A DNA stretch of 14,330 nucleotides from Chalciporus piperatus (Eukaryota; Basidiomycota; Agaricomycetes; Boletales; Boletaceae), in assembly GCA_038093975.1 (NCBI GenBank), contig JBBPTG010000425.1, positions 1 to 14,330 on the forward strand. The letters run 5' to 3'. Shown here one piece after another: positions 1-13,775 of this stretch (within the stretch, counting starts at the first letter, position 1; the number at the start of each line of letters is the position of its first letter). The notes under the pieces were generated by a model that was not told where the DNA came from, did no database searches, and saw only the letters and a program-made list of their open reading frames with translations. Position numbers and translations under genes: made by a program.

Positions 1-230
1 AATGATGATCTATAAATAGCAAATGCCAATGAAGGTAATGTAGGATATTTAAATACATTAATAGAAAATTTATCAAAAATTAAATTATTAAATTTAATTA
101 ATATTTCATATAAAGATATACAATCTAACATATTATAATTTAGTAACTCATTTCTAAAATTCCAAATATTTAATATTTCTAGTACATAATCATTATATTC
201 TTGAATATTAATATCTTTAAAATATTTCAT
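1..230 (-). pseudogene. Mitochondrial linear-plasmid-type family B DNA polymerase (dpo), truncated fragment
   Basis: The reverse strand is open from an ATG at 230 to the left edge (76 codons). It reads like the exonuclease/polymerase junction of protein-primed family B DNA polymerases (DNA_pol_B_2) of fungal mitochondrial linear plasmids: a Y-x3-D Exo III-like motif (YNMLD, followed by CISLYEI), then PTLPSLAFAIYRS, which is characteristic of this family. An in-frame TAG directly precedes the ATG and the several hundred residues expected upstream are missing, so the 5' part is truncated or frameshifted. A possible vestige of an upstream FPY motif lies on the same strand near 405-430 in another frame. 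The gene continues beyond the window. Composition is far more AT-rich than everything to the right, as in organellar plasmid DNA. Recognition is from memory of the family; no search was run. Confidence 0.72.
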
Positions 231-308
231 CTAATATTGAAGTTAATATTTCAATGTTTAAATTTTTAGTTGTTATAACTAGTTTTTTCATGTTTTTATG
301 TTATATAG

Positions 309-348
309 TAATAAGGATGGTTACTTCTTAATAGGAATGGTTACCTCA
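309..348. repeat. 20-bp imperfect direct repeat in AT-rich DNA
   Basis: Two adjacent 20-nt copies (309-328 and 329-348) differ at four positions and share ATGGTTAC. They lie just upstream, in the minus-strand sense, of the dpo fragment. No function is apparent. Confidence 0.5.
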
Positions 349-464
349 AGATTATTGTTAATAATGTATATACTAATAAAGGAGTGTTATATATTCCAAT
401 ATAAGAAAATATATGGAAAATACCTCTCTGTAAAGGTGAATACAAAATTGATAATATAAAAGAA

Positions 465-818
465 TTATATATATAATATAAAATTACATATTGTAGGAAT
501 TAATATACATAATAAAATATATAATTCTAACAATATTAAAAATACGATTAAACTTAATGAAAAAGTAAATCCGTAAATATATCTCATATTATATTTATTT
601 AATGACCTATCGTTTGAAAAACAAAAAGTAAATATTAAAAAATAATTTATTATTAATAATATAGAAAATATAGGTAATACTATATCTAACATATTTTCAC
701 ACATATATAAAATTACTGGAAAAGTTGTTAACAACCTTTCAAAGTGCCAATAATAAAATATTAATGGTATAGGTCTATCTCTATAAATAAAGGAAATTAA
801 AGTTTTGATAATGTGAAA
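465..818 (-). CDS. Hydrophobic multi-pass membrane ORF in plasmid-like AT-rich DNA
   Basis: This minus-strand frame is open from 818 to a TAA at 465-467. The first in-frame ATG is at 704 (79 aa, beginning MCENMLDIV); upstream in-frame candidates would be TTG at 734 or an ATT/ATA start. The product is almost entirely hydrophobic, with two to three likely membrane helices around IFSILLIINYFLIFTF and SLSLIVFLILLELYILLCI. It lies next to the dpo fragment on the same strand and points inward from the AT-rich/telomere junction, as genes near the ends of linear mitochondrial plasmids do. I do not recognise the family. In such AT-rich DNA a chance hydrophobic ORF is possible. Confidence 0.35.
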   Translation of the reverse strand, partial: FHIIKTLISFIYRDRPIPLIFYYWHFERLLTTFPVILYMCENMLDIVLPIFSILLIINYFLIFTFCFSNDRSLNKYNMRYIYGFTFSLSLIVFLILLELYILLCILIPTICNFILYI

Positions 819-826
819 TTAAAATT

Positions 827-950: not shown

Positions 951-1014
951 GTGAGTGTTGCTTTCGTAGAGCTTTTCGTTAAAAGCTGAATTATAGTGAC
1001 GTGTTCTGGTATAG
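951..1014 (+). other. 64-bp leader block between telomeric repeats, intron-like ends
   Basis: A non-telomeric block beginning GTGAGT and ending GTATAG, flanked on both sides by CCCTAA repeats. It contains a 7-bp hairpin (AGCTTTT/AAAAGCT). It recurs at 9943-10006 in unit 3 with only a loop change (CGTT versus CGAT) and is absent from unit 2, where continuous telomeric repeats run through the site. It could be the true 5' end of the element or a short intron. Confidence 0.6.
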
Positions 1015-1032
1015 CTAACCCTAACCCTAACC

Positions 1033-1551
1033 CTAACCTTTAACCTTAACCGAACCTTAACAGTGGGGCCCTCCGGCTTACGTAAGTGTTCTAGACCCGG
1101 CCGTTTCCGGACAGCTCGGTGTCTATAATGTTATCGCGATAAGAAATAAGGTTTGACACGTCATGGGATTTGAAATATCTAATATTGGATAAGGTACCCG
1201 TGTGTGGCTTCGGCCCCCGGGCTAAGTCGGCCGCCCTGCCTTGGCAGGAACGCTCTGTATTTTTATACAGGAACCATTCCCACGTCATTGTGAAACAGGA
1301 CCGCAGCAGGGGCAAACTGCGCCGCAGCAGAACTCTATGTGACGTGTCTCTCCCACTCCCTCGGAGCTACTAATTCGCCGTTTTATTCCCACCAGCCACT
1401 CATTGTCTATTTAAGCTGACCAGGTTGAGACAAGTAAGTCTCAACACTGTTACCCGGTGTTAACTCCTCTTCAGCGTTAAGTCCCTTTCGTGAGAAAGTC
1501 CCCCCTAACCCCTTTTATACGCTACCTTCACCCCCCATCTTCTTGTTTACA
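1033..1551 (+). promoter_or_regulatory. PLE unit 1 5' UTR / leader
   Basis: A roughly 520-nt leader shared by all three units. Two consecutive hairpins occur near 1230-1275: CCTGCC-TT-GGCAGG, then CTGTAT-TTTT-ATACAG. Units 2 and 3 change one C to T in each stem, which keeps G.U pairing. A TATA-like TATTTAAG lies at 1408-1415 (5899-5906 in unit 2, 10400-10407 in unit 3). The 3' half of the hammerhead ribozyme follows at 1424-1459. A telomere-like CCCCCCTAACCCC lies at about 1500-1513, shortly before the start codon, and is where unit 3 is truncated. Which segment is the promoter cannot be decided from sequence. Confidence 0.5.
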
Positions 1552-2728
1552 ATGTCCAACGCTCAGATGCTCCGCGCTATGTCTCCCCTCCTCTCGCATG
1601 ACCTTATGGGCGCCCCGCTCATGACAGAAACCATGGACGGAGAGTACGTGCTCAACCCTTCTGCTCTTTCTCGTCACGCGGCTTTGCAAGCCGCGTCTTC
1701 AGTTGACGAGGTCATCGCGATGATTCCACAGGATTTCCGTACTGTCCTCCGCGATCCGCTTAAAGCGGTCGCTAGTACGGCTACCAAGCTGTCTAGCGCG
1801 CGGTCCACTTTGGAGAAGTGGCGGTCACATCAAGTGGCCGGGACTGTCCCTCCCTTCATGTCTCAGAAGGGCGCCGAGGCTCAATTTACCTTGGCGTTCG
1901 AGGAGGACGCAACCGGCAAAGCCCATCGGGTTAAGCTGGCCGAGTCCCACGTCGCTCATCTCAAAGCGACGTTAGATAACTTTGTCCGCGCTAAAACGGA
2001 CGAAGTATCTTTCCTCGAGAGGGCTCTCGCCCATACGGCGATTTTCGATATCCTTAGACCACTTGTGGTCGACAGGACGGCTTTCTTGACGCGCGAGCGC
2101 AAGATCCCCCGCATCAAGCACAAAGATGGTGCGGAGATCGAGATCGTCGATTGGATCGAGGACACAAGCATCATGAACCTTGGAAGACAGGTTCTTGATG
2201 ATTGTGTGCTGTACGCGTACCGAGTTCGAAACATCGTCGACTCGGCTCTGTTGGTTCAGGCCGAAAGGCTTGAATCTAAGAAACGCTTGCACAAGTCCGC
2301 TGACGTTGAAATGAAGGACGGTACAGGATCTTCGGTTCCTGAAGGCGCCACCTTCCAGAGCATGTTCGATAAAGCAGTCAACACGGCGGTCTCACGGTTA
2401 TCCGGCAAAGTAAGTTCCTTCATCGAGTGTTCCCTCGATGACGAACTGATTCCTTCCTCCATAGGGCCAATCAGGCGGAGGAAAGAATGCTGGGACCAAG
2501 GGAGGGAAAGGTGGCAAAGCAGGAAAGCCCTCCAGCGCCAGAATTCAGACCAACCAACCCAAGCAGCCACAGCCCAAGCCATCCGGATCAGGAAAGGGAA
2601 AGGGAAGAGCGCGATCAGAGACGCCTCCTCCATACGTCCCGCCTCCGGTCAAGGCTCGCCGGCGTCAAGCCGAAGGGGCCCTACGGAAGGCTGCTCAAAA
2701 GGGGAAGAAAGCTGTTACGGGAGCTTGA
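1552..2728 (+). CDS. PLE unit 1 ORF1 (Gag-like), spliced or frameshifted product
   Basis: Joining 1552-2409 to 2465-2728 (removing a 55-bp GTAAGT...ATAG segment) gives a 373-aa protein. Its last 87 residues are Gly/Lys/Pro/Arg-rich: GQSGGGKNAGTKGGKGGKAG, then KPKQ-like stretches, SGSGKGKGRARSE, TPPPYVPPP and an Arg/Lys-rich end, with TGA at 2726-2728. Such a tail suits nucleic-acid binding by a Gag-like protein. Support comes from unit 2: in this frame codon changes include synonymous Ser TCC/AGC and Arg AGA/CGA swaps, whereas the colinear long frame changes at 11 of about 40 residues just downstream of the junction. A +1 frameshift near 2464 would reach the same tail. The N-terminal 286 residues are rich in helix formers and may be coiled-coil. 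Function is inferred from composition and position only. Confidence 0.55.
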
Positions 2729-5070
2729 GAGAGGAAGTCGCGTGGACAGACGTAAATAAAGCCATGAAGGACTTTGTTTACGGTAAACCTAGCTCTATCC
2801 CTGACGTACTACTATGTGTATCTCCCCTACTCGCAATACGGACTATTATCGCGCATACGCCCATTGAGTTTATTGAGGCAGCCAAGTTTCGTGACCACAT
2901 TCATGTGGGTCCAAACGTGAGTATACCTACTGAGATCGAATATGACCTGTCGGTTGGTATGAAATATCTATTTCATCAACCCCGTCGCACTGAGTTAATC
3001 AGCGACGCCTGGAGCGACTTTATACGCCGTTTCAGATGGAGAGTCAAGTTTCTATTCGAAGGCGACGACGCCACTTATGACCCAGACTACGACGTGCGCG
3101 CGCCTTCCATCAAGGAGCCGCCACGTCTACCGCACTATGTTGAATTAGCTATCATCGAGGGGCGGAGGTACGTGCGTGACACGATCTCCAAAATACCCGA
3201 TGACGGCGGCGTGGACGACACCTTTAGACCGCTCGGTCCTAAGCTATCACAAATTCGACAGTTCTTGATCGACAATGACTACGTTGTTACAGCGACCGAT
3301 AAGAACCTTGGTATCGCGGTGTCAGAGCGGACCTGGATAATGAGTAAAAGTCTAGATTGCATCAGTAACCCAGCCGAATACAGACGGCTGACTGATATAG
3401 AAGCTAAAATCATACTAGACCGGAAATGCAATGAAATGTTGCTGTTGTCACATGAAGCGGATCACTGCCTTGATTGGCAGTTCGGCACTGTATCGGAATT
3501 CTTTCGTAGTAAAATAACGCCCCCGGGGAAAGAACATCATATTCCGAAATTCTATGGTATTCCTAAGATCCATAAGGAACCGGTCAAATTTAGACCGATA
3601 TTACCCTGCCATTCGGCGATACAGAACCCTGCCGCGAAATTCGTTTCCAAAATCCTCAAACCGATTGTTGAGTCGGCGCCAACCATTATACATGGTACCA
3701 AAGATCTGGCGATAAAATTGAGTCAGCTTAAATATATACCTCGAAAGCAAATATACATCGTTACCGGTGACGTGGTCGCTTTCTACCCAAACATTCCTCT
3801 TAGGAAGTGCTTAGACCGTGTCTTTGACATGTACATGGAGCACTACTGGAATATCCCTGACCATGACGACGAGTTCAATGTGAGACAACAGAACGCGTTT
3901 AAACGATGCCTAGAGGTGGGCAACACAGAGCTGATAACGCAGTTTGATGGCGTACCTTATCTTCAACTTAAAGGCCTAGCAATGGGCGTCGCGGACTCAC
4001 CCGATCTTGCAAATCTGTACGGGTGGTCATGTGAAAAACGCGACAAGGTACAACAACACCACAGTATTGTCTTTTACGGACGATATATCGACGACTGTCT
4101 GTCTATAGTTTACGCCGAATCTGAACATGAGGCGCTACAAATAGTTCAATCAGTAATACACGTCGATGACTGCGAATTAACCTGGGAGGTTGGAAAATAC
4201 TTACCGTTCCTGGACATGATGTTATACGTCGATGATAAAAACGTTCTCCAGCACATGCCCTACCGGAAAGTCCGATCAAACCAGGAAAGGATTCCATGGA
4301 TCTCTGCTCACCCGTTCGACGTCAAGCGTGGAACGTTTTATGGTGAAATGAGCCGTTTGGCCACGCTGAGTAGCACCTTTGAACACTACTCTGACGCCAT
4401 AAGGAGCTTGGTCGCTCTTTATGTAAAGCGGGGTTATCCACAAGCGCTGGTACGGAGTTGGGCTAGAGATAAGCTCACAGTACGATGGGAAAATCGTCTC
4501 CAAATACGAAATGAGGGGACCGCGGACGTGCTAGTCCTCAAAACCCACTTCAATACAGCATGGAATTACTTTAACGCACAAGAACTGAGCGACACTATGA
4601 TGGGATACATGCGCACTTGGCTAGATAAAGCTGAGCGTGGCGAATATTCTCGAAAATTCCCGCCGGCCCCTAGGTCCTATGTTGATTCTATATCTGGAAC
4701 TCACCACGCTGTAAAGCTGGTTGATGATTTCGGTGATGAACTCTGGGTCCCGGACGTCCGGAAGATCGGTATCCCTGACCGTCGGATGCTTGTGTCACGT
4801 AAGCGTACACAAAATTTATTCGACTTAACAGGTCTTTGGAAGAAAATAGTGTTGGAACAGCTAGACGAGCGTGAGTCCTCTGCGGATGCTATCCGTCCCT
4901 TTGATGAGCCTCACATTGTTCTCGGCGATGAAGCCTATCTTCGTCATCCATCAGGCCGTCTGATGGAACAAGGCGACGAAGAACTAAACTTACACCGCCG
5001 CTCGCCTACACCTTTAATGGTGGATCCGTCTGACTTGGCCGACACCCTCCTTCGGGTTGGGCTACGCTAG
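1552..5070 (+). CDS. PLE unit 1 polyprotein-length ORF: ORF1 region plus Penelope-type reverse transcriptase
   Basis: A continuous 1172-aa frame from ATG 1552 (context ACAATGT; a TTG nine bases upstream is not a credible eukaryotic start). Residues 1-286 form a helical ORF1 region with no family I can name. Residues ~305-400 are a low-quality linker that is probably out of frame. From about residue 405 comes the reverse transcriptase: DKNLG (583), YGIPKIHK (668-675), RPIL (681), catalytic Asp in DVVAFYPNIP (740), LAMGVADSP (about 809-817), YIDD (845-848, Asp 847/848), YLPFLD (883-888), and a thumb region with HPFDVKRG (from 920). These are Penelope-type RT motifs. No GIY-YIG nuclease follows; the C-terminus carries NLFDLTGLWKKIVLEQL near 1088. 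All catalytic aspartates are present. The RT may instead be translated from a conserved internal ATG at 2764 (768 aa). The whole ORF is compatible with activity. Confidence 0.9.
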   Translation: MSNAQMLRAMSPLLSHDLMGAPLMTETMDGEYVLNPSALSRHAALQAASSVDEVIAMIPQDFRTVLRDPLKAVASTATKLSSARSTLEKWRSHQVAGTVPPFMSQKGAEAQFTLAFEEDATGKAHRVKLAESHVAHLKATLDNFVRAKTDEVSFLERALAHTAIFDILRPLVVDRTAFLTRERKIPRIKHKDGAEIEIVDWIEDTSIMNLGRQVLDDCVLYAYRVRNIVDSALLVQAERLESKKRLHKSADVEMKDGTGSSVPEGATFQSMFDKAVNTAVSRLSGKVSSFIECSLDDELIPSSIGPIRRRKECWDQGRERWQSRKALQRQNSDQPTQAATAQAIRIRKGKGKSAIRDASSIRPASGQGSPASSRRGPTEGCSKGEESCYGSLREEVAWTDVNKAMKDFVYGKPSSIPDVLLCVSPLLAIRTIIAHTPIEFIEAAKFRDHIHVGPNVSIPTEIEYDLSVGMKYLFHQPRRTELISDAWSDFIRRFRWRVKFLFEGDDATYDPDYDVRAPSIKEPPRLPHYVELAIIEGRRYVRDTISKIPDDGGVDDTFRPLGPKLSQIRQFLIDNDYVVTATDKNLGIAVSERTWIMSKSLDCISNPAEYRRLTDIEAKIILDRKCNEMLLLSHEADHCLDWQFGTVSEFFRSKITPPGKEHHIPKFYGIPKIHKEPVKFRPILPCHSAIQNPAAKFVSKILKPIVESAPTIIHGTKDLAIKLSQLKYIPRKQIYIVTGDVVAFYPNIPLRKCLDRVFDMYMEHYWNIPDHDDEFNVRQQNAFKRCLEVGNTELITQFDGVPYLQLKGLAMGVADSPDLANLYGWSCEKRDKVQQHHSIVFYGRYIDDCLSIVYAESEHEALQIVQSVIHVDDCELTWEVGKYLPFLDMMLYVDDKNVLQHMPYRKVRSNQERIPWISAHPFDVKRGTFYGEMSRLATLSSTFEHYSDAIRSLVALYVKRGYPQALVRSWARDKLTVRWENRLQIRNEGTADVLVLKTHFNTAWNYFNAQELSDTMMGYMRTWLDKAERGEYSRKFPPAPRSYVDSISGTHHAVKLVDDFGDELWVPDVRKIGIPDRRMLVSRKRTQNLFDLTGLWKKIVLEQLDERESSADAIRPFDEPHIVLGDEAYLRHPSGRLMEQGDEELNLHRRSPTPLMVDPSDLADTLLRVGLR
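2410..2464 (+). other. Candidate 55-bp intron inside unit 1 ORF
   Basis: It begins GTAAGT after a complete Lys codon and ends CATAG; a CTGAT possible branch site lies about 18 nt before the end. The length, 55 bp, is not a multiple of three, so splicing switches frame into the Gly/Lys-rich ORF1 tail. Against intron status, all four differences from unit 2 are at third positions of the unspliced frame and synonymous, so the segment also behaves as coding. Confidence 0.45.
2764..5070 (+). CDS. PLE unit 1 ORF2: stand-alone reverse transcriptase (alternative start)
   Basis: ATG 2764 is in frame with the long ORF, conserved in unit 2, and lies 35 nt after the TGA that ends the Gag-like frame. From here the two units become highly similar (22 of 768 residues differ by my count). 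The product carries the whole PLE RT: catalytic Asp at 336, YIDD Asp at 443/444, and the thumb and C-terminal region, without a nuclease. Translation could occur by reinitiation after ORF1 or from the unspliced fusion; the sequence does not decide between these. Confidence 0.5.
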   Translation: MKDFVYGKPSSIPDVLLCVSPLLAIRTIIAHTPIEFIEAAKFRDHIHVGPNVSIPTEIEYDLSVGMKYLFHQPRRTELISDAWSDFIRRFRWRVKFLFEGDDATYDPDYDVRAPSIKEPPRLPHYVELAIIEGRRYVRDTISKIPDDGGVDDTFRPLGPKLSQIRQFLIDNDYVVTATDKNLGIAVSERTWIMSKSLDCISNPAEYRRLTDIEAKIILDRKCNEMLLLSHEADHCLDWQFGTVSEFFRSKITPPGKEHHIPKFYGIPKIHKEPVKFRPILPCHSAIQNPAAKFVSKILKPIVESAPTIIHGTKDLAIKLSQLKYIPRKQIYIVTGDVVAFYPNIPLRKCLDRVFDMYMEHYWNIPDHDDEFNVRQQNAFKRCLEVGNTELITQFDGVPYLQLKGLAMGVADSPDLANLYGWSCEKRDKVQQHHSIVFYGRYIDDCLSIVYAESEHEALQIVQSVIHVDDCELTWEVGKYLPFLDMMLYVDDKNVLQHMPYRKVRSNQERIPWISAHPFDVKRGTFYGEMSRLATLSSTFEHYSDAIRSLVALYVKRGYPQALVRSWARDKLTVRWENRLQIRNEGTADVLVLKTHFNTAWNYFNAQELSDTMMGYMRTWLDKAERGEYSRKFPPAPRSYVDSISGTHHAVKLVDDFGDELWVPDVRKIGIPDRRMLVSRKRTQNLFDLTGLWKKIVLEQLDERESSADAIRPFDEPHIVLGDEAYLRHPSGRLMEQGDEELNLHRRSPTPLMVDPSDLADTLLRVGLR

Positions 5071-5425
5071 GTCCCTTGCAACGTAGGAAACGCAGTTTCG
5101 TCGGTCTGACGTCCTGGGTCTCCCTTGGAAACGCACGTTTGTAACTTTTTCTGCAAAGGTACTGAATGGTACCGCGCACCTCGGCTAAGTGGGTATTAGA
5201 GGCCCATCGTCTTCGGATGGAGCCATGAGGTACTAATGTGGAGGCCTTTTGGTCAAGTGAGTGTCTAGTACTTGGTTCTCGATTCGGTTGTACTGATGTC
5301 GTCAGAGCTGGACCGCTCCGCGTTTGCATTGTTTGGATCTCGCTGCTTGTGCGGGGAATATTACGGTAAGTAATACTGTATGTTATTTGGTAAAACGGAC
5401 ATACTAACCACGGTTTTTTGGGAAC
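5071..5425 (+). other. PLE unit 1 3' UTR
   Basis: 355 nt with no ORF. Only two bases differ from unit 2 (T/G in CGCGTTTGC and A/G in GGGAACC), a much lower divergence than in ORF1, consistent with an RNA element read by the RT or with recent conversion. It ends with a 5' splice-like GTAAGT (5366-5371), a perfect TACTAAC branch-like heptamer (5402-5408) and GGTTTTTTGGGAACC, directly against telomeric repeats. Confidence 0.65.
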
Positions 5426-5527
5426 CTAACCCTAACCCTAACCTAACCCTAACCCTAACCTAACCCTAACCCTAACCCTAACCCTAACCCTAACCCTAAC
5501 CTAACCCTAACCTAACCCTAACCCTAA
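5426..5527 (+). repeat. Telomeric repeat tract between units 1 and 2
   Basis: About 100 bp of CCCTAA with interspersed CCTAA, lying between the 3' end of unit 1 and the 5' end of unit 2. It has the same orientation as the other tracts and contains no AG dinucleotide on the plus strand. Confidence 0.95.
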
Positions 5528-6041
5528 CCTTTAACCTTAACCGAACCTTAACAGTGGGGCCCTCCGGCTTACGTAAGTGTTCTAGACCCGGCCGTTTCCG
5601 GACAGCTCGGCGTCTATAGTGTTATCGCGATAAGAAATAAGGTTTGACACGTCATGGGATTTGAAATATCTAATATTGGATAAGGTACCCGTGTGTGGCT
5701 TCGGCCCCCGGGCTAAGTCGGCCGCCCTGTCTTGGCAGGAACGCTTTGTATTTTTATACAGGAACCATTCCCACGTCATTGTGAAACAGGACCGCAGCAG
5801 GGGCAAACTGCGCCGCAGCAGAACTCTATGTGACGTGTCTCTCCCACTCCCTCGGAGCTACTAATTCGCCGTTTTATTCCCACCAGCCACTCATTGTCTA
5901 TTTAAGCTGACCAGGTTGAGACAAGTAAGTCTCAACACTGTTACCCGGTGTTAACTCCTCTCCAGCGTTAAGTCCCTTTCGTGAGAAAGTCCCCCCTAAC
6001 CCCCTTTATACGCTACCTTCACCCCCCATCTTCTGTTTACA

Positions 6042-7215
6042 ATGTCCAACGCTCAGATGCTCCGCGCCATGTCTCCCCTCCTCGCGCATGACCTTGTGGG
6101 CGCTCCGCTCATGACCGAAGATCTTGACGGAAAGTACGTGCTCAACCCTCCTGCTATCTCTCGTCACGCGGCTTTGCAAGCCGCGTCTTCAGTTGACGAA
6201 GTCATCGCGATGATTCCACAGGATTTTCGTACAGTTCTTCGCGACCCGCTTAAGGCGGTCGCTAGTACGGCTACCAAGCTGTCTAGCGCGCGGTCCACTC
6301 TGGAAAAGTGGCGGTCACATCAGGTGGCCGGAACTATCCCTCCCTTCATGTCTCAGAAGGGCGCCGAGGCACAGTTTACCTTGGCGTTCGAGGAGGATGC
6401 AACCGGTAAAGCCCATCGGGCTAAGCTGGCCGAGTCCCATGTTGCCCATCTCAAGGCAACATTAGACAATTTTGTCCGCGCAAAAACGGACGAAGTTGGC
6501 TTCCTCGAGAGGGCTCTCGCCCATGAAGCGATCTTTGATATCCTTCGACCACTCGTGATCGATAGGACGGCATTCTTGACGCGCGAGCGCAAGATCCCCC
6601 GCATCCAACATGATGGAGCGGAGATCAAGGTCATTGATTGGATCGAGGACACCAGCATCATGAACCTTGGAAGACAGGTTCTCGATGACTGTGTCGTGTA
6701 CGCTTACCGTGTTCGAAACATCGTCGACTCGGCTTTGTTGGTCCAGGCCGAAAGGCTTGAATCCAAAAAGCGCTTGCACAAGTCCGCTGACGTTGAGATG
6801 AAGGATGGCACAGGAGCTTCGGTCCCTGAGGGCGCTACCTTCCAATCCATGTTCGATAAAGCAGTCAACACAGCGGTTTCACGGTTATCCGGCAAGGTAA
6901 GTTCCTTCATTGAGTGTTCCCTCGATGACGAACTGATCCCTTCTTCGATAGGGCCAATCAGGTCGAGGAAAGGATGCTGGGACCAAGGGAGGAAAGGGTG
7001 GCAAAGCAGGAAAGTCCTCCAGCGCCCGAATTCACACCAACCAGCCCAAGCAGCCCCCGCCCAAGTCGAGCGGATCAGGAAAGGGAAAGGGAAGAGCGCG
7101 ATCAGAGACGCCTCCTCCATACGTCCCGCCTCCGGTCAAGACTCGCCGGCGTCAAGCCGAAGGGGCCCTACGGAAGGCTGCTCAAAAGGGGAAGAAAGCT
7201 GTTACGGGAGCTTGA
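6042..7215 (+). CDS. PLE unit 2 ORF1 (Gag-like), spliced or frameshifted product
   Basis: Joining 6042-6896 to 6952-7215 gives 372 aa and ends at TGA 7213-7215, at the position corresponding to unit 1. The 87-residue tail begins GQSGRGKDAGTKGGKGG and retains the PPPYVPPP motif and the basic end. It differs from the unit 1 tail at seven residues. The stretch coding the last ~48 residues is identical to unit 1 apart from one base. The functional call (nucleic-acid-binding Gag-like protein) is inference from composition. Confidence 0.55.
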
Positions 7216-9557
7216 CCGAGCCGGTCGCGTGGACAGACGTAAATAGAGAAATGCGAAACTTTATTTACGGTAAACCTAGCTCTATCCCTGACGTACTTTT
7301 ATGTGTATCAACCCCTCTCGCAATACGGACTATCATCGCGCACACGCCCATTGAGTTTATTGAGGCTGCCAAGTTTCGTGACCACATTCATGTGGGTCCA
7401 AATGTGAGTATACCTACTGAGATCGAATATGACCTGTCGGTTGGTATGAAATATCTATTTCATCAACCCCGTCGCACTGAGTTAATCAGCGACGCCTGGA
7501 ACGACTTTATACGACGTTTCAGATGGAGAGTCAAGTTTCTATTCGAAGGCGACGACGCCACTTATGACCCAGACTACGACGTGCGCGAGCCTTCCATCAA
7601 GGAGCCGCCACGTCTACCGCATTATGTTGAATTAGCTATCATCAAGGGGCGGAAGTACGTGCGTGACACGATTTCCAAAATACCTGATGACGGCGGCATG
7701 GACGACACCTTTAGACCGCTCGGTCCTAAGCTAAAACAAATTCGACAGTTCTTAATCGACAATGACTATGTTGTCACAGCGACCGATAAGAACCTTGGTA
7801 TCGCGGTGTCAGAGCGGACCTGGATAATGAGTAAAAGTCTAGACTGCATCAGTAATCCTGCCGAATACAGACGGCTAACTGATATAGAAGCTAAAATCAT
7901 ACTAGACCGGAAATGCAACGAAATGTTGCTGTTGTCGCATGAAGCGGATAACTGTCTTGATTGGCAGTTCGGCACTGTATCGGAATTCTTTCGTAGTAAA
8001 ATAACGCCCCCGGGGAAAGAACATCATATTCCGAAATTCTATGGTATTCCTAAGATCCATAAGGAACCGGTCAAATTCAGACCGATATTACCCTGCCATT
8101 CGGCGATACAGAACCCTGCCGCTAAATTCGTTTCCAAAATCCTCAAACCGATTGTTGAGTCGGCGCCAACCATTATACATGGTACCAAAGATCTGGCGAT
8201 AAAATTGAGTCAGCTTAAATATATACCTCGAAAGCAAATATACATCGTTACCGGTGACGTGGTCGCTTTCTACCCAAATATTCCTCTTAGGAAGTGCTTA
8301 GACCGTGTCTTTGACATGTACATGGAGCACTACTGGAATGTCCCCGACCATGACGACGAGTTCAATGTGAGACAACAGAACGCGTTTAAACGGTGCCTAG
8401 AGGTGGGCAACACAGAGCTGATAACGCAGTTTGATGGCGTACCTTATCTTCAACTTAAAGGCCTAGCAATGGGCGTCGCGGACTCCCCCGATCTTGCAAA
8501 TCTGTACGGGTGGTCATGTGAAAAACGCGACAAGGTACAATCACACCACAGTATTGTCTTTTACGGACGATATATCGACGACTGTCTGTCTATAGTTTAC
8601 GCCGAATCTGAACATGAGGCGCTACAAATAGTTCAATCAGTAATACGCGTCGATGACTGCGAATTGACTTGGGAGGTCGGTAAATACTTACCGTTCTTGG
8701 ACATGATGTTATACGTCGATGATAAAAACGTTCTCCAGCACATGCCCTATCGGAAAGCCCGATCAAACCAAGAAAGGATTCCATGGATCTCTGCTCACCC
8801 GTTCGACGTCAAGCGTGGAACGTTTTTTGGTGAAATGAGCCGCCTCGCCACGCTGAGTAGCACCTTTGAACACTACTCGGACGCCATACGGAGCTTGGTC
8901 GCTTTGTATGTAAAGCGTGGTTATCCAGCGGCGCTGGTACGAAGTTGGGCTAGAGATAAGCTCACAGTACGATGGGAAAATCGTCTCCAAATACGAAATG
9001 AGGAGAACGCGGACGTGCTAGTCCTCAAAACCCACTTCAATACAGCATGGAATTACTTTAACGCACAAGAACTGAGCGACACTATGATGGGATACATGCG
9101 CACTTGGCTAGATAAAGCCGAGCGTGGCGAATACTCTCGAGAATTCCCGCCGGCCCCTAGGTCCTATATTGATTCTATATCTGGAACTCACCATGCCGTA
9201 AAGCTGGTTGATGATTTCGGTGATGAACTTTGGGTCCCGGACGTCCGGAAGATCGGTATCCCTGACCGTCGAATGCTTGTGTCACGAAAGCGTACACAAA
9301 ATTTATTCGATCTAACAGGTCTTTGGAAGAAAATAGTGTTGGAACAGCTAGACGAGCGTGAGTCCTCTGCGGATGCTATCCGTCCCTTTGATGAGCCTCA
9401 CATTGTTCTCGGCGATGAAGCCTATCTTCGTCATCCATCAGGCCGTCTGATGGAACAAGGCGACGAAGAACTAAACTTACACCGCCGCTCGCCTACACCT
9501 TTAATGGTGGATCCGTCTGACTTGGCCGACACCCTCCTTCGGGTTGGGCTACGCTAG
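6042..9557 (+). CDS. PLE unit 2 polyprotein-length ORF: ORF1 region plus Penelope-type reverse transcriptase
   Basis: A continuous 1171-aa frame from ATG 6042 (same ACAATGT context as unit 1). It is one codon shorter than unit 1 because of an indel in the ORF1 region (IQHDGAE versus IKHKDGAE). Catalytic Asp is at residue 739 and YIDD at 844-847, so the RT core is intact; no GIY-YIG domain follows. Differences from unit 1 are unevenly spread: about 18 substitutions plus the indel in the first ~286 residues, a poorly conserved linker, 22 substitutions in the RT part, and none over roughly the last 200 residues. As in unit 1, an internal ATG (7251) may start the separate RT. Confidence 0.9.
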   Translation: MSNAQMLRAMSPLLAHDLVGAPLMTEDLDGKYVLNPPAISRHAALQAASSVDEVIAMIPQDFRTVLRDPLKAVASTATKLSSARSTLEKWRSHQVAGTIPPFMSQKGAEAQFTLAFEEDATGKAHRAKLAESHVAHLKATLDNFVRAKTDEVGFLERALAHEAIFDILRPLVIDRTAFLTRERKIPRIQHDGAEIKVIDWIEDTSIMNLGRQVLDDCVVYAYRVRNIVDSALLVQAERLESKKRLHKSADVEMKDGTGASVPEGATFQSMFDKAVNTAVSRLSGKVSSFIECSLDDELIPSSIGPIRSRKGCWDQGRKGWQSRKVLQRPNSHQPAQAAPAQVERIRKGKGKSAIRDASSIRPASGQDSPASSRRGPTEGCSKGEESCYGSLTEPVAWTDVNREMRNFIYGKPSSIPDVLLCVSTPLAIRTIIAHTPIEFIEAAKFRDHIHVGPNVSIPTEIEYDLSVGMKYLFHQPRRTELISDAWNDFIRRFRWRVKFLFEGDDATYDPDYDVREPSIKEPPRLPHYVELAIIKGRKYVRDTISKIPDDGGMDDTFRPLGPKLKQIRQFLIDNDYVVTATDKNLGIAVSERTWIMSKSLDCISNPAEYRRLTDIEAKIILDRKCNEMLLLSHEADNCLDWQFGTVSEFFRSKITPPGKEHHIPKFYGIPKIHKEPVKFRPILPCHSAIQNPAAKFVSKILKPIVESAPTIIHGTKDLAIKLSQLKYIPRKQIYIVTGDVVAFYPNIPLRKCLDRVFDMYMEHYWNVPDHDDEFNVRQQNAFKRCLEVGNTELITQFDGVPYLQLKGLAMGVADSPDLANLYGWSCEKRDKVQSHHSIVFYGRYIDDCLSIVYAESEHEALQIVQSVIRVDDCELTWEVGKYLPFLDMMLYVDDKNVLQHMPYRKARSNQERIPWISAHPFDVKRGTFFGEMSRLATLSSTFEHYSDAIRSLVALYVKRGYPAALVRSWARDKLTVRWENRLQIRNEENADVLVLKTHFNTAWNYFNAQELSDTMMGYMRTWLDKAERGEYSREFPPAPRSYIDSISGTHHAVKLVDDFGDELWVPDVRKIGIPDRRMLVSRKRTQNLFDLTGLWKKIVLEQLDERESSADAIRPFDEPHIVLGDEAYLRHPSGRLMEQGDEELNLHRRSPTPLMVDPSDLADTLLRVGLR
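6897..6951 (+). other. Candidate 55-bp intron inside unit 2 ORF
   Basis: The same length and position as in unit 1, beginning GTAAGT after an AAG codon and ending GATAG, with CTGAT upstream of the acceptor. The AAG|GTAAGT donor is closer to consensus than unit 1's AAA|GTAAGT. Removing it shifts translation into the Gly/Lys-rich tail. Confidence 0.45.
7251..9557 (+). CDS. PLE unit 2 ORF2: stand-alone reverse transcriptase (alternative start)
   Basis: The in-frame ATG 7251 lies 35 nt after the ORF1-tail TGA (7213-7215), the same spacing as unit 1, although the bases between differ. The product is 768 aa with RT motifs as described for unit 1. It is an alternative to expression as part of the 1171-aa fusion. 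Confidence 0.5.
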   Translation: MRNFIYGKPSSIPDVLLCVSTPLAIRTIIAHTPIEFIEAAKFRDHIHVGPNVSIPTEIEYDLSVGMKYLFHQPRRTELISDAWNDFIRRFRWRVKFLFEGDDATYDPDYDVREPSIKEPPRLPHYVELAIIKGRKYVRDTISKIPDDGGMDDTFRPLGPKLKQIRQFLIDNDYVVTATDKNLGIAVSERTWIMSKSLDCISNPAEYRRLTDIEAKIILDRKCNEMLLLSHEADNCLDWQFGTVSEFFRSKITPPGKEHHIPKFYGIPKIHKEPVKFRPILPCHSAIQNPAAKFVSKILKPIVESAPTIIHGTKDLAIKLSQLKYIPRKQIYIVTGDVVAFYPNIPLRKCLDRVFDMYMEHYWNVPDHDDEFNVRQQNAFKRCLEVGNTELITQFDGVPYLQLKGLAMGVADSPDLANLYGWSCEKRDKVQSHHSIVFYGRYIDDCLSIVYAESEHEALQIVQSVIRVDDCELTWEVGKYLPFLDMMLYVDDKNVLQHMPYRKARSNQERIPWISAHPFDVKRGTFFGEMSRLATLSSTFEHYSDAIRSLVALYVKRGYPAALVRSWARDKLTVRWENRLQIRNEENADVLVLKTHFNTAWNYFNAQELSDTMMGYMRTWLDKAERGEYSREFPPAPRSYIDSISGTHHAVKLVDDFGDELWVPDVRKIGIPDRRMLVSRKRTQNLFDLTGLWKKIVLEQLDERESSADAIRPFDEPHIVLGDEAYLRHPSGRLMEQGDEELNLHRRSPTPLMVDPSDLADTLLRVGLR

Positions 9558-9913
9558 GTCCCTTGCAACGTAGGAAACGCAGTTTCGTCGGTCTGACGTC
9601 CTGGGTCTCCCTTGGAAACGCACGTTTGTAACTTTTTCTGCAAAGGTACTGAATGGTACCGCGCACCTCGGCTAAGTGGGTATTAGAGGCCCATCGTCTT
9701 CGGATGGAGCCATGAGGTACTAATGTGGAGGCCTTTTGGTCAAGTGAGTGTCTAGTACTTGGTTCTCGATTCGGTTGTACTGATGTCGTCAGAGCTGGAC
9801 CGCTCCGCGTGTGCATTGTTTGGATCTCGCTGCTTGTGCGGGGAATATTACGGTAAGTAATACTGTATGTTATTTGGTAAAACGGACATACTAACCACGG
9901 TTTTTTGGGAGCC
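9558..9913 (+). other. PLE unit 2 3' UTR
   Basis: 356 nt, nearly identical to the unit 1 3' UTR. It carries GTAAGT (9853-9858), TACTAAC (9889-9895) and, unlike unit 1, an AG at 9910-9911, so a complete 59-bp intron-like layout (9853-9911) exists at the very 3' end. Confidence 0.6.
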
Positions 9914-9942
9914 TTACCCTAACCCTTAACCTAACCCTAACC
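9914..9942 (+). repeat. Short telomeric repeat tract between units 2 and 3
   Basis: About 29 bp of CCCTAA-type repeats including the CCCTTAACC variant that also precedes unit 1. Confidence 0.85.
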
Positions 9943-10409
9943 GTGAGTGTTGCTTTCGTAGAGCTTTTCGATAAAAGCTGAATTATAGTGACGTGTTCTG
10001 GTATAGCTAACCCTAACCCTAACCCTAACCTTTAACCTTAACCGAACCTTAACAGTGGGGCCCTCCGGCTTACGTAAGTGTTCTAGACCCGGCCGTTTCC
10101 GGACAGCTCGGCGTCTATAGTGTTATCGCGATAAGAAATAAGGTTTGACACGTCATGGGATTTGAAATATCTAATATTGGATAAGGTACCCGTGTGTGGC
10201 TTCGGCCCCCGGGCTAAGTCGGCCGCCCTGTCTTGGCAGGAACGCTTTGTATTTTTATACAGGAACCATTCCCACGTCATTGTGAAACAGGACCGCAGCA
10301 GGGGCAAACTGCGCCGCAGCAGAACTCTATGTGACGTGTCTCTCCCACTCCCTCGGAGCTACTAATTCGCCGTTTTATTCCCACCAGCCACTCATTGTCT
10401 ATTTAAGCT

Positions 10410-10468
10410 GTGAGTGTAACGGTTGTTCAAATTACCATCGGGTCTGATGAGTTATTATAACGAAACAG
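10410..10468 (+). other. 59-bp spliceosomal-type intron in unit 3, precisely absent from units 1 and 2
   Basis: It begins GTGAGT and ends ACAG. Removing it restores AAGCT|GACCAGG, the exact sequence of units 1 and 2. The TTATAAC near its end is a possible branch site but also forms ribozyme stem II. Length and borders are typical of fungal introns. The segment carries the core strand of the hammerhead ribozyme. Confidence 0.75.
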
Positions 10469-10510
10469 GACCAGGTTGAGACAAGTAAGTCTCAACACTG
10501 TTACCCGGTG
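10436..10510 (+). ncRNA. Type I hammerhead ribozyme
   Basis: Stem I pairs CATCGGGT (10436-10443) with ACCCGGTG (10503-10510): eight pairs, one of them G.U. The core CTGATGA is at 10444-10450. Stem II is GTTA-TTA-TAAC (10451-10461), followed by GAAA (10462-10465). Stem III pairs ACAG (10465-10468) with CTGT (10498-10501) and is topped by a GTTGAGAC/GTCTCAAC hairpin (10475-10482 with 10489-10496). The cleavage residue H17 is T10502, so self-cleavage is predicted between 10502 and 10503. PLEs are known to carry hammerheads. The core strand lies inside the 59-bp intron, so splicing abolishes the ribozyme. Activity is untested; a GUU site is permitted, though GUC is commoner. Confidence 0.85.
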
Positions 10511-10553
10511 TTAACTCCTCTCCAGCGTTAAGTCCCTTTCGTGAGAAAGTCCC

Positions 10554-10581
10554 CCCTAACCCTAACCTAACCCTAAACCTA
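10554..10581 (+). repeat. Telomeric remnant at the inner edge of the array
   Basis: CCCTAACCCTAACC with slightly degenerate continuation, overlapping the element's own CCCTAACCC. It marks the ancestral telomere onto which unit 3 was added. Confidence 0.8.
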
Positions 10582-13470: not shown

Positions 13471-13775
13471 ACCGAAACCGCGCAATTCCTGAAAATCAGG
13501 AATTGCGCGATATGACTACCCCACAATCTGTCACCGATCGAGTGACCACCGAAACCGCGCAATTCCTGAAAATCAGGAATTGCGCGATATGACTACCCCC
13601 ACAATCTGTCACCGATCGAGTGACCACCGAAACCGCGCAATTCCTGAAAATCAGGAATTGCGCGATATGACTACCCCCACAATCTGTCACCGATCGAGTG
13701 ACCACCGAAACCGCGCAATTACTGAAAATCAGGAATTGCGCGATATGACTACCCCCACCATCTGATACCGATATA
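13471..13775. repeat. Tandem repeat, 77-78 bp x 3.9, each unit with a 14-bp-arm hairpin
   Basis: Copies start at 13471 (77 bp), 13548 (78), 13626 (78) and 13704 (partial, decaying after about 13758). Each unit contains a perfect inverted repeat, CGCGCAATTCCTGA-AAA-TCAGGAATTGCGCG, and a second small one, GTCAC...GTGAC around CGATCG. In copy 4 one left-arm base is changed (ATTCC to ATTAC), breaking a single pair. Three copies are otherwise nearly identical, implying recent expansion or homogenisation. Confidence 0.95.

Follow-up and report, generated by a model that had tools for sequence, protein, structure and literature searches.

Hammerhead ribozymes have been reported across Penelope-like elements (PLEs), where their role has been called a mystery (PMC7761336). 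The described systems closest to the locus presented here are compared with it as excerpts of the cited articles portray them. In the Terminon and Athena elements of bdelloid rotifers, a reverse transcriptase (RT) without a recognised endonuclease domain is associated with telomeres, 5' ends lie in telomere repeats, and copies form head-to-tail arrays (PMC6431247, PMC12477314). A hammerhead is found directly ahead of the telomere-complementary 3' repeats of Terminons (work of Arkhipova et al. 2017, summarized in PMC6431247), and the ribozyme of telomeric PLEs is thought to expose such repeats for pairing with the overhang (PMC6431247, PMC12477314). PAc of Anolis, an example of the canonical Penelope/Poseidon elements, has a GIY-YIG endonuclease and a pseudo-LTR hammerhead near the ORF start; its reverse transcription begins at an internal site of the RNA close to the pseudo-LTR/ORF junction, which leaves a “tail” (PMC11167929). 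PLE hammerheads in general share a type I layout within pseudo-LTRs and are described as mostly without helix III and tertiary contacts (PMC6155905, PMC7761336). Self-cleaving RNA and splicing act on one transcript in the intronic hammerheads of RECK and C10orf118 (PMC3088659) and in the Cpeb3 ribozyme, for which a race between cleavage and splicing has been argued (PMC10919898).

We analyzed the whole of contig C425 (14,330 nt, hereafter “the window”) from a Chalciporus piperatus genome assembly of 35.5 Mb in 484 contigs. The element that it carries resembles Terminons and Athena in the RT, telomere association, 5' ends, arrays and hammerhead position described above. The catalytic strand of its predicted hammerhead is carried by a GT-AG segment of 59 bp that the 5' leaders lack, a feature of which we found no mention in the consulted descriptions of Terminons (PMC6431247, PMC12477314). 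It shares with PAc the position of the hammerhead and the tail, but its tail corresponds to telomere repeats, searches revealed no endonuclease domain in it, and the PAc hammerhead is, in the available part of that article, described without an intron (PMC11167929). Compared with PLE hammerheads generally, the type I layout in pseudo-LTRs is the same, whereas here a 4-bp stem III surrounds a hairpin and the core sits on an intron candidate (PMC6155905, PMC7761336). In RECK, C10orf118 and Cpeb3 the entire ribozyme lies in an intron, which is cut (PMC3088659, PMC10919898); here intron and exon each contribute a part, and the act of splicing would destroy the ribozyme. No description of a hammerhead split by an intron was found, by title or opening lines of the abstract, in full-text searches of an open-access collection, and an earlier description may exist.

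A probable telomere-associated Penelope-like element

The window contains two nearly complete retroelement units (units 1 and 2) and a third leader (unit 3). Telomere repeats, which read as CCCTAA-type in the sense strand, stand ahead of the units and between them. “Core-less” below refers to leaders without the 59-bp segment.

951..1551, + strand: core-less 5' leader of unit 1, with 5/450 differences from units 2 and 3
1552..5070, + strand: coding region of unit 1, with ORF1 (intron 2410-2464) and RT ORF2 (ATG 2764); a single open 1172-aa frame if unspliced
5511..6041, + strand: core-less 5' leader of unit 2, with 0/450 differences from unit 3
6042..9557, + strand: coding region of unit 2, with ORF1 (intron 6897-6951) and RT ORF2 (ATG 7251); a single open 1171-aa frame if unspliced
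9912..10562, + strand: unit 3, the 3' pseudo-LTR of unit 2's element, with telomere-like repeats at its start; the leader from 10012 lies 458 bp behind the RT stop

The element is probably a telomere-associated PLE, at chromosome ends. It shows pseudo-LTRs in tandem with a tail at the pseudo-LTR/ORF junction, and an intron in ORF1 that is kept in 3/3 genomic copies. As expected of an endonuclease-deficient telomeric PLE, its telomere repeats are oriented for priming by a G-rich overhang, the sense strand carrying CCCTAA repeats. The RT has DKNLG, IPKIHKE and RYIDD motifs, which we take to be PLE-like. Both proteins match the Pfam family RVT_1 weakly (21.4 bits at E 2.3e-4 in one and 21.3 bits in the other, below the cut-off of 29.6), and neither of the two has a Pfam match up to E 1 to GIY-YIG or another endonuclease domain. 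A PDB search with the RT protein gave no match, and the structure model of the RT was unusable (mean pLDDT 28.1). A pattern search for relatives returned 1 match in viral contigs and 20 in genome contigs, none of them confirmed. In several copies the tail continues into CCCTAA-like repeats, while two copies (on C16 and C3) lie inside large contigs.

Further observations concern the surroundings of the element and the assembly. The left flank of the window (1-820) has about 18% G+C, is 100% identical to C159:29499-30318 and is joined to telomere repeats; it is either organelle-like DNA captured by the end of a chromosome or a join made in assembly. A repeat of about 78 bp stands in tandem in the right flank (13477-13770) and contains an inverted repeat (CGCGCAATTCCTGA...TCAGGAATTGCGCG). 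Contig C384 has the same RT stretch, with the same TAA, at both of its ends and in the same orientation (169-1410 and 16119-17360), which reflects either a tandem or an assembly overlap. Hydrophobin matches numbered 37 in this genome and none in 14 control genomes, which, together with the short introns modelled in its actin-family genes, suggests a filamentous fungus as host.

The 59-bp segment and the predicted hammerhead that it completes

Unit 3 aligns without gaps to both 5' leaders on either side of a single segment, 10012-10409 to 1020-1417 and 5511-5908, and 10469-10562 to 1418-1511 and 5909-6002. The intervening 59 bp (10410-10468) are cleanly missing from unit 1 at 1417/1418 and from unit 2 at 5908/5909. 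Outside them, unit 2 differs from unit 3 at 0/450 sites, which bears out the claim of the first-pass annotation of this DNA that these two leaders match by eye over about 500 bp save for one 59-bp GTGAGT...ACAG segment; the unit 1 leader differs from both at 5/450. The ends of the segment can slide by one base (G), GTGAGT...ACAG being one of two registers. Only 7 of 80,739 59-mers in eight contig stretches have the form GTRAGY...YAG, and all seven are copies of this segment; the eighth copy, on C420, is 60 bp long. The exact absence of a GT-AG segment is solid.

Judged by its letters, the segment is best read as a spliceosomal intron. It has the GT-AG ends and host-like length of a U2-type intron and a possible branch site, and two genomic copies lack exactly these 59 bp. 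Introns of 49-61 nt occur at 7/11 modelled junctions of host actin-family genes (the other 4/11, at 85-185 nt, look wrongly bounded). The CTGAT within the segment fits a CTRAY branch site, with A10447 lying 21 nt before the intron end, which is weak evidence because few of the modelled host introns have a strict CTRAY.

When the 59 bp are present, and only then, the leader contains a complete predicted type I hammerhead, with three stems around a core and open at stem I: stem I of 8 bp, CTGATGA, stem II of 4 bp, GAAA, and stem III of 4 bp (10465-10468/10498-10501), with predicted cleavage after GTT.

10410..10468, + strand: 59-bp GT-AG segment, the intron candidate, which carries the hammerhead catalytic strand; exact presence or absence against 1417/1418 and 5908/5909
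10436..10443, + strand: stem I, 5' strand; forms 8 bp with 10503-10510, including a single G-U
10444..10450, + strand: CTGATGA catalytic core, containing the branch-site-like CTGAT
10451..10461, + strand: stem II and its loop; 4 pairs in 7/8 copies, with T10453C in C344
10462..10468, + strand: GAAA (10462-10465) and stem III 5' strand (10465-10468), whose CAG doubles as the candidate 3' splice site
10472..10500, + strand: retained hairpin within stem III, whose CAG (10472-10474) rivals the intron CAG for CTG 10498-10500 in the fold probabilities
10498..10510, + strand: substrate strand, that is, stem III 3' strand, cleavage site 10502/10503 and stem I 3' strand; kept in the core-less copies at 1447-1459 and 5938-5950
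10551..10562, + strand: tail, CCCCCCTAACCC, complementary to TTAGGG telomere repeats

The first-pass annotation had assigned the stem I 5' strand, CTGATGA, stem II and GAAA to the segment and the cleavage site to the flank, which is correct, and had left the stem III strands wholly in the flank; the 5' strand of stem III (CAG) also belongs to the segment, which supplies everything but the substrate strand. All that would remain of the hammerhead after splicing is CTGTT, the cleavage site and ACCCGGTG. CTGATGA, GAAA and the GTT triplet are rightly placed in 8/8 core-bearing copies, and this anatomy is solid. One pair of the retained hairpin (10479/10492) is altered on both sides in the copy on C3.

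A chance hammerhead is rejected. A descriptor requiring at least 5 bp in stem I and at least 3 in stems II and III, written after the motif had been seen, finds 7/8 copies (C344 is missed through T10453C in stem II) and nothing else on either strand of the contig stretches examined (162,438 bases for the two strands together); it finds nothing in 4,873,140 bases of first-order Markov sequence or in 20,000 random sequences of leader length. The same search bears on the idea that the 59 bp were inserted into the leader as a gained intron and made a hammerhead by chance. In units 1 and 2 the flanks alone do read through without a break, as an insertion would have it, but the partner strands of stems I and III lie in the flank and the arrangement never arose in 4.87 Mb of random sequence. 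We reject an intron gain that created the ribozyme. Core-bearing copies, moreover, occur on all backgrounds seen and core-less ones on one array, and hammerheads are reported in PLEs generally in the excerpted literature (PMC6155905, PMC7761336). We consider such a gain very improbable.

Covariance models do not confirm the hammerhead. No match at the gathering score was obtained with Rfam anywhere in the window, and a search of 10350-10560 returned only Hammerhead_3, at 12.4 bits and E 7.6. The first-pass annotation had named the lack of a significant covariance-model hit as grounds for giving up its claim, and that is the outcome here. The miss is likely caused by the 29-nt stretch inside stem III; since there is no Rfam match at gathering score, we call the structure hammerhead-like by anatomy rather than Rfam-confirmed. 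In thermodynamic folding, with a program that models neither the core nor tertiary contacts, stems I and II have probabilities of at least 0.71 in all four contexts and stem III has a probability near 0, the exon CAG taking the CTG strand from the intron CAG; forcing all three stems costs 5.1 kcal/mol.

These results leave room for a reading in which the segment is an intron but the hammerhead does not cleave in the cell, being either a relic or a fold with the purely structural task of presenting the tail that is complementary to telomere repeats. The silence of Rfam and the disfavoured stem III agree with it, as does the fact that the 3' copies are uncut in 8/8 cases. In the part of PMC11167929 that bears on the question, catalytic mutants of the anole Penelope are without effect on insertion in vitro and no reads end at the cleavage site. 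Against it, 8/8 copies have the same core, GAAA, cleavage triplet and stem I, which is weak evidence because the copies are 97-100% alike. We regard a relic or structural hammerhead as possible, while leaning somewhat away from it.

Position in the element and the number of losses

A census of the assembly with the core pattern (up to 3 mismatches) found 8 places, and a reversed-pattern control 0. The core-less junction was found exactly at 2 places, both in the window, and at 1 unrelated place with 2 mismatches (control 1). No ragged gap of the kind that the first-pass annotation had said would count against an intron was present among these 8 core-bearing and 2 core-less copies. All eight core-bearing leaders end at or just after CCCCCCTAA, mostly followed by telomere-like repeats and then by differing flanks. 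In 5/5 loci (unit 3, C420, C164, C384 and C149), a distance of 458 or 459 bp separates the RT stop from this leader, 59 bp included, and the telomere-like stretch that lies between the two is shared by all five; the copies on C344, C3 and C16 are 5'-truncated leaders with no ORF ahead. Because of this fixed spacing, unit 3 is identified as the 3' pseudo-LTR of unit 2's element, and the description of units 1-3 as sister copies, which the first-pass annotation had used, is rejected.

The presence of the segment tracks position in the element. It is found in 8/8 copies that end in the tail and in 0/2 leaders ahead of ORFs, these two being the only leaders so placed. The exact probability of such a split is 1/45, a value to be read with the proviso that the two core-less leaders are perhaps not independent, since they are neighbors. 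The position dependence is solid, and the absence of the core from the gene-fronting copies, together with its retention at the far ends, suggests that splicing may switch a putative self-cutting RNA off.

Whether the segment was lost once or twice depends on how the leaders are related. Of the five sites at which unit 1 differs, four show states found in other copies, and at 10522 a C occurs in units 2 and 3 only, with T in the other 8 copies. At least two changes of core presence are needed on the flank tree, on which units 1, 2 and 3 form a clade with support of 92/95 from few informative sites and a bootstrap that had not settled. As the unit 2 leader is closer to unit 3 than to the unit 1 leader, the segment was either removed twice or its absence was spread by recombination; two identical losses are accounted for by precise splicing. 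Recombination is visible elsewhere in the element. The body of unit 1 resembles C420 (0-3 differences per 150 columns), and in ORF1 as many as 22 columns per 150 set it apart from unit 2. Since the elements are mosaic, a conversion tract within 10248-10521 could have moved one deletion; units 1 and 2 do not differ across these 274 bp, which is the upper bound of such a tract.

Other differences among the units were also seen. Between 1470-5420 and 5961-9912, the leader and the 3' region of units 1 and 2 are nearly identical and ORF1 differs by about 10%. Units 1-3 have common leader variants at 10251-10257 and 10281-10282 (TATTTTTATA; TTG for TAC) that occur in none of the other copies covering these positions; some of the variants preserve a short hairpin through changes on both sides.

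A second intron, in ORF1, bears on how the core-less leaders arose. A 55-bp GTAAGT...ATAG segment is present in 3/3 copies (2410-2464, 6897-6951 and C420:8174-8228) and has CTGAT 15 nt before its end. A search of the genome with up to 2 mismatches found no spliced ORF1 junction. Of the 16 differences between units 1 and 2 behind this segment, 8 are synonymous when read in the spliced frame, 0 in the fused frame and 5 in the third, the remaining 8, 16 and 11, respectively, being nonsynonymous. It looks like a real intron because the substitutions favor the spliced frame. After splicing, ORF1 would encode a basic-tailed protein of 373 or 372 aa; without it, the frame continues into the RT (about 1172 aa). 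That this intron is kept in the core-less copies is the strongest fact against the idea that spliced RNA was copied.

Two more segments have an intron-like appearance. A 64-bp GTGAGT...ATAG segment lies between telomere-like repeats ahead of units 1 and 3 (951-1014 and 9943-10006) and is missing ahead of unit 2, an absence that cannot be judged because of the telomere-like repeats on both sides. In the 3' region (5366-5425 and 9853-9912), a GTAAGT...TACTAAC...TTTTTT stretch has the look of a third intron, with an ambiguous 3' splice site (GGGAA or GGGAG), and is kept in the copies examined.

The retained ORF1 intron also fits a competitor to splicing, in which a single DNA deletion, or a skip of the reverse transcriptase, occurred in a 5' leader and was inherited, the 3' repeats being a separate, hammerhead-keeping lineage and the GT-AG ends a coincidence. 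Only two core-less copies exist, adjacent in one array, the 5' and 3' repeats are consistently different, and the mosaic bodies attest to recombination. The ends, however, are an exact GTRAGY...YAG with one base of slide, and the unit 2 leader equals that of unit 3 and not that of unit 1, so that an additional conversion of about 274 bp or less is needed. We judge a single deletion unlikely.

A proposed link between splicing, self-cleavage and priming

Overall, we favor, with some reserve, a spliceosomal leader intron that carries one half of a hammerhead and whose splicing deletes the ribozyme from 5' leaders. The first-pass annotation had proposed that splicing and self-cleavage exclude each other and that splicing produced the ribozyme-less copies. 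Its proposal keeps the exactness of the GT-AG ends, the intron-like length, the dependence of the ribozyme on the 59 bp and the two or more changes on the tree; it loses the sister copies, and the retained ORF1 intron counts against simple copying of spliced RNA. Splicing, self-cleavage and their competition are what we infer from the sequences of these copies.

In the mechanism that we propose, the intron would bring the stem I strand, CUGAUGA, stem II, GAAA and the stem III strand, and the exon behind it would keep the cleavage site and the partner strands. An unspliced leader would then fold into a type I hammerhead directly ahead of the telomere-complementary tail, where new copies begin, and a spliced leader would be an ordinary 5' UTR that has lost cleavage. 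Because the core contains CUGAU and the 3' splice site is the stem III strand, the spliceosome and the ribozyme would be in competition for the nucleotides that both need. RNA with a spliced leader would be the template for the leaders that reverse transcription places ahead of ORFs, and unspliced RNA the template for the 3' terminal repeats. The hammerhead fold may help the 3' tail to prime, and splicing may keep the 5' leader from priming; the unspliced leader would be a 3' priming, possibly cleaving, module, so that full-length copying would start at the 3' repeat only. The proposal is anchored in both published layouts, as that of the element fits the descriptions of Terminons and of the anole Penelope.

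The kept ORF1 intron could be answered within this mechanism if RNAs retaining the leader intron cut themselves, in which case the surviving copies of 5' leaders would be those spliced there. Self-cutting of unspliced RNAs would in turn require that the 3' copies, uncut in 8/8 cases, be protected, for example by a bound element protein; their uncut state also indicates that cleavage would be inefficient in 3' copies. An origin of the 5' leaders from circular RNA was rejected by reasoning, since a repeat passage around an unspliced circle would bring the core back.

More tentatively, the hammerhead may be switched by splicing in a strict sense. With the branch site being the core and the 3' splice site being stem III, spliceosome and ribozyme would exclude each other, and splicing would make an ordinary 5' leader out of a module for cleavage and priming at the 3' end and so mark where the copy ends for the element; we hold this fuller version to be plausible, short of probable. 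In its boldest form, the excised 59-nt intron would be a complete trans-acting hammerhead, its substrate strand staying in the spliced RNA.

The genome offers a natural contrast: leaders that are otherwise nearly the same either have or lack the catalytic strand, according to where they stand in the element. Should the intron interpretation be true, it would link what the ribozyme does in this element to splicing and to where priming starts, and the element would harbor a natural ribozyme under the control of the spliceosome.
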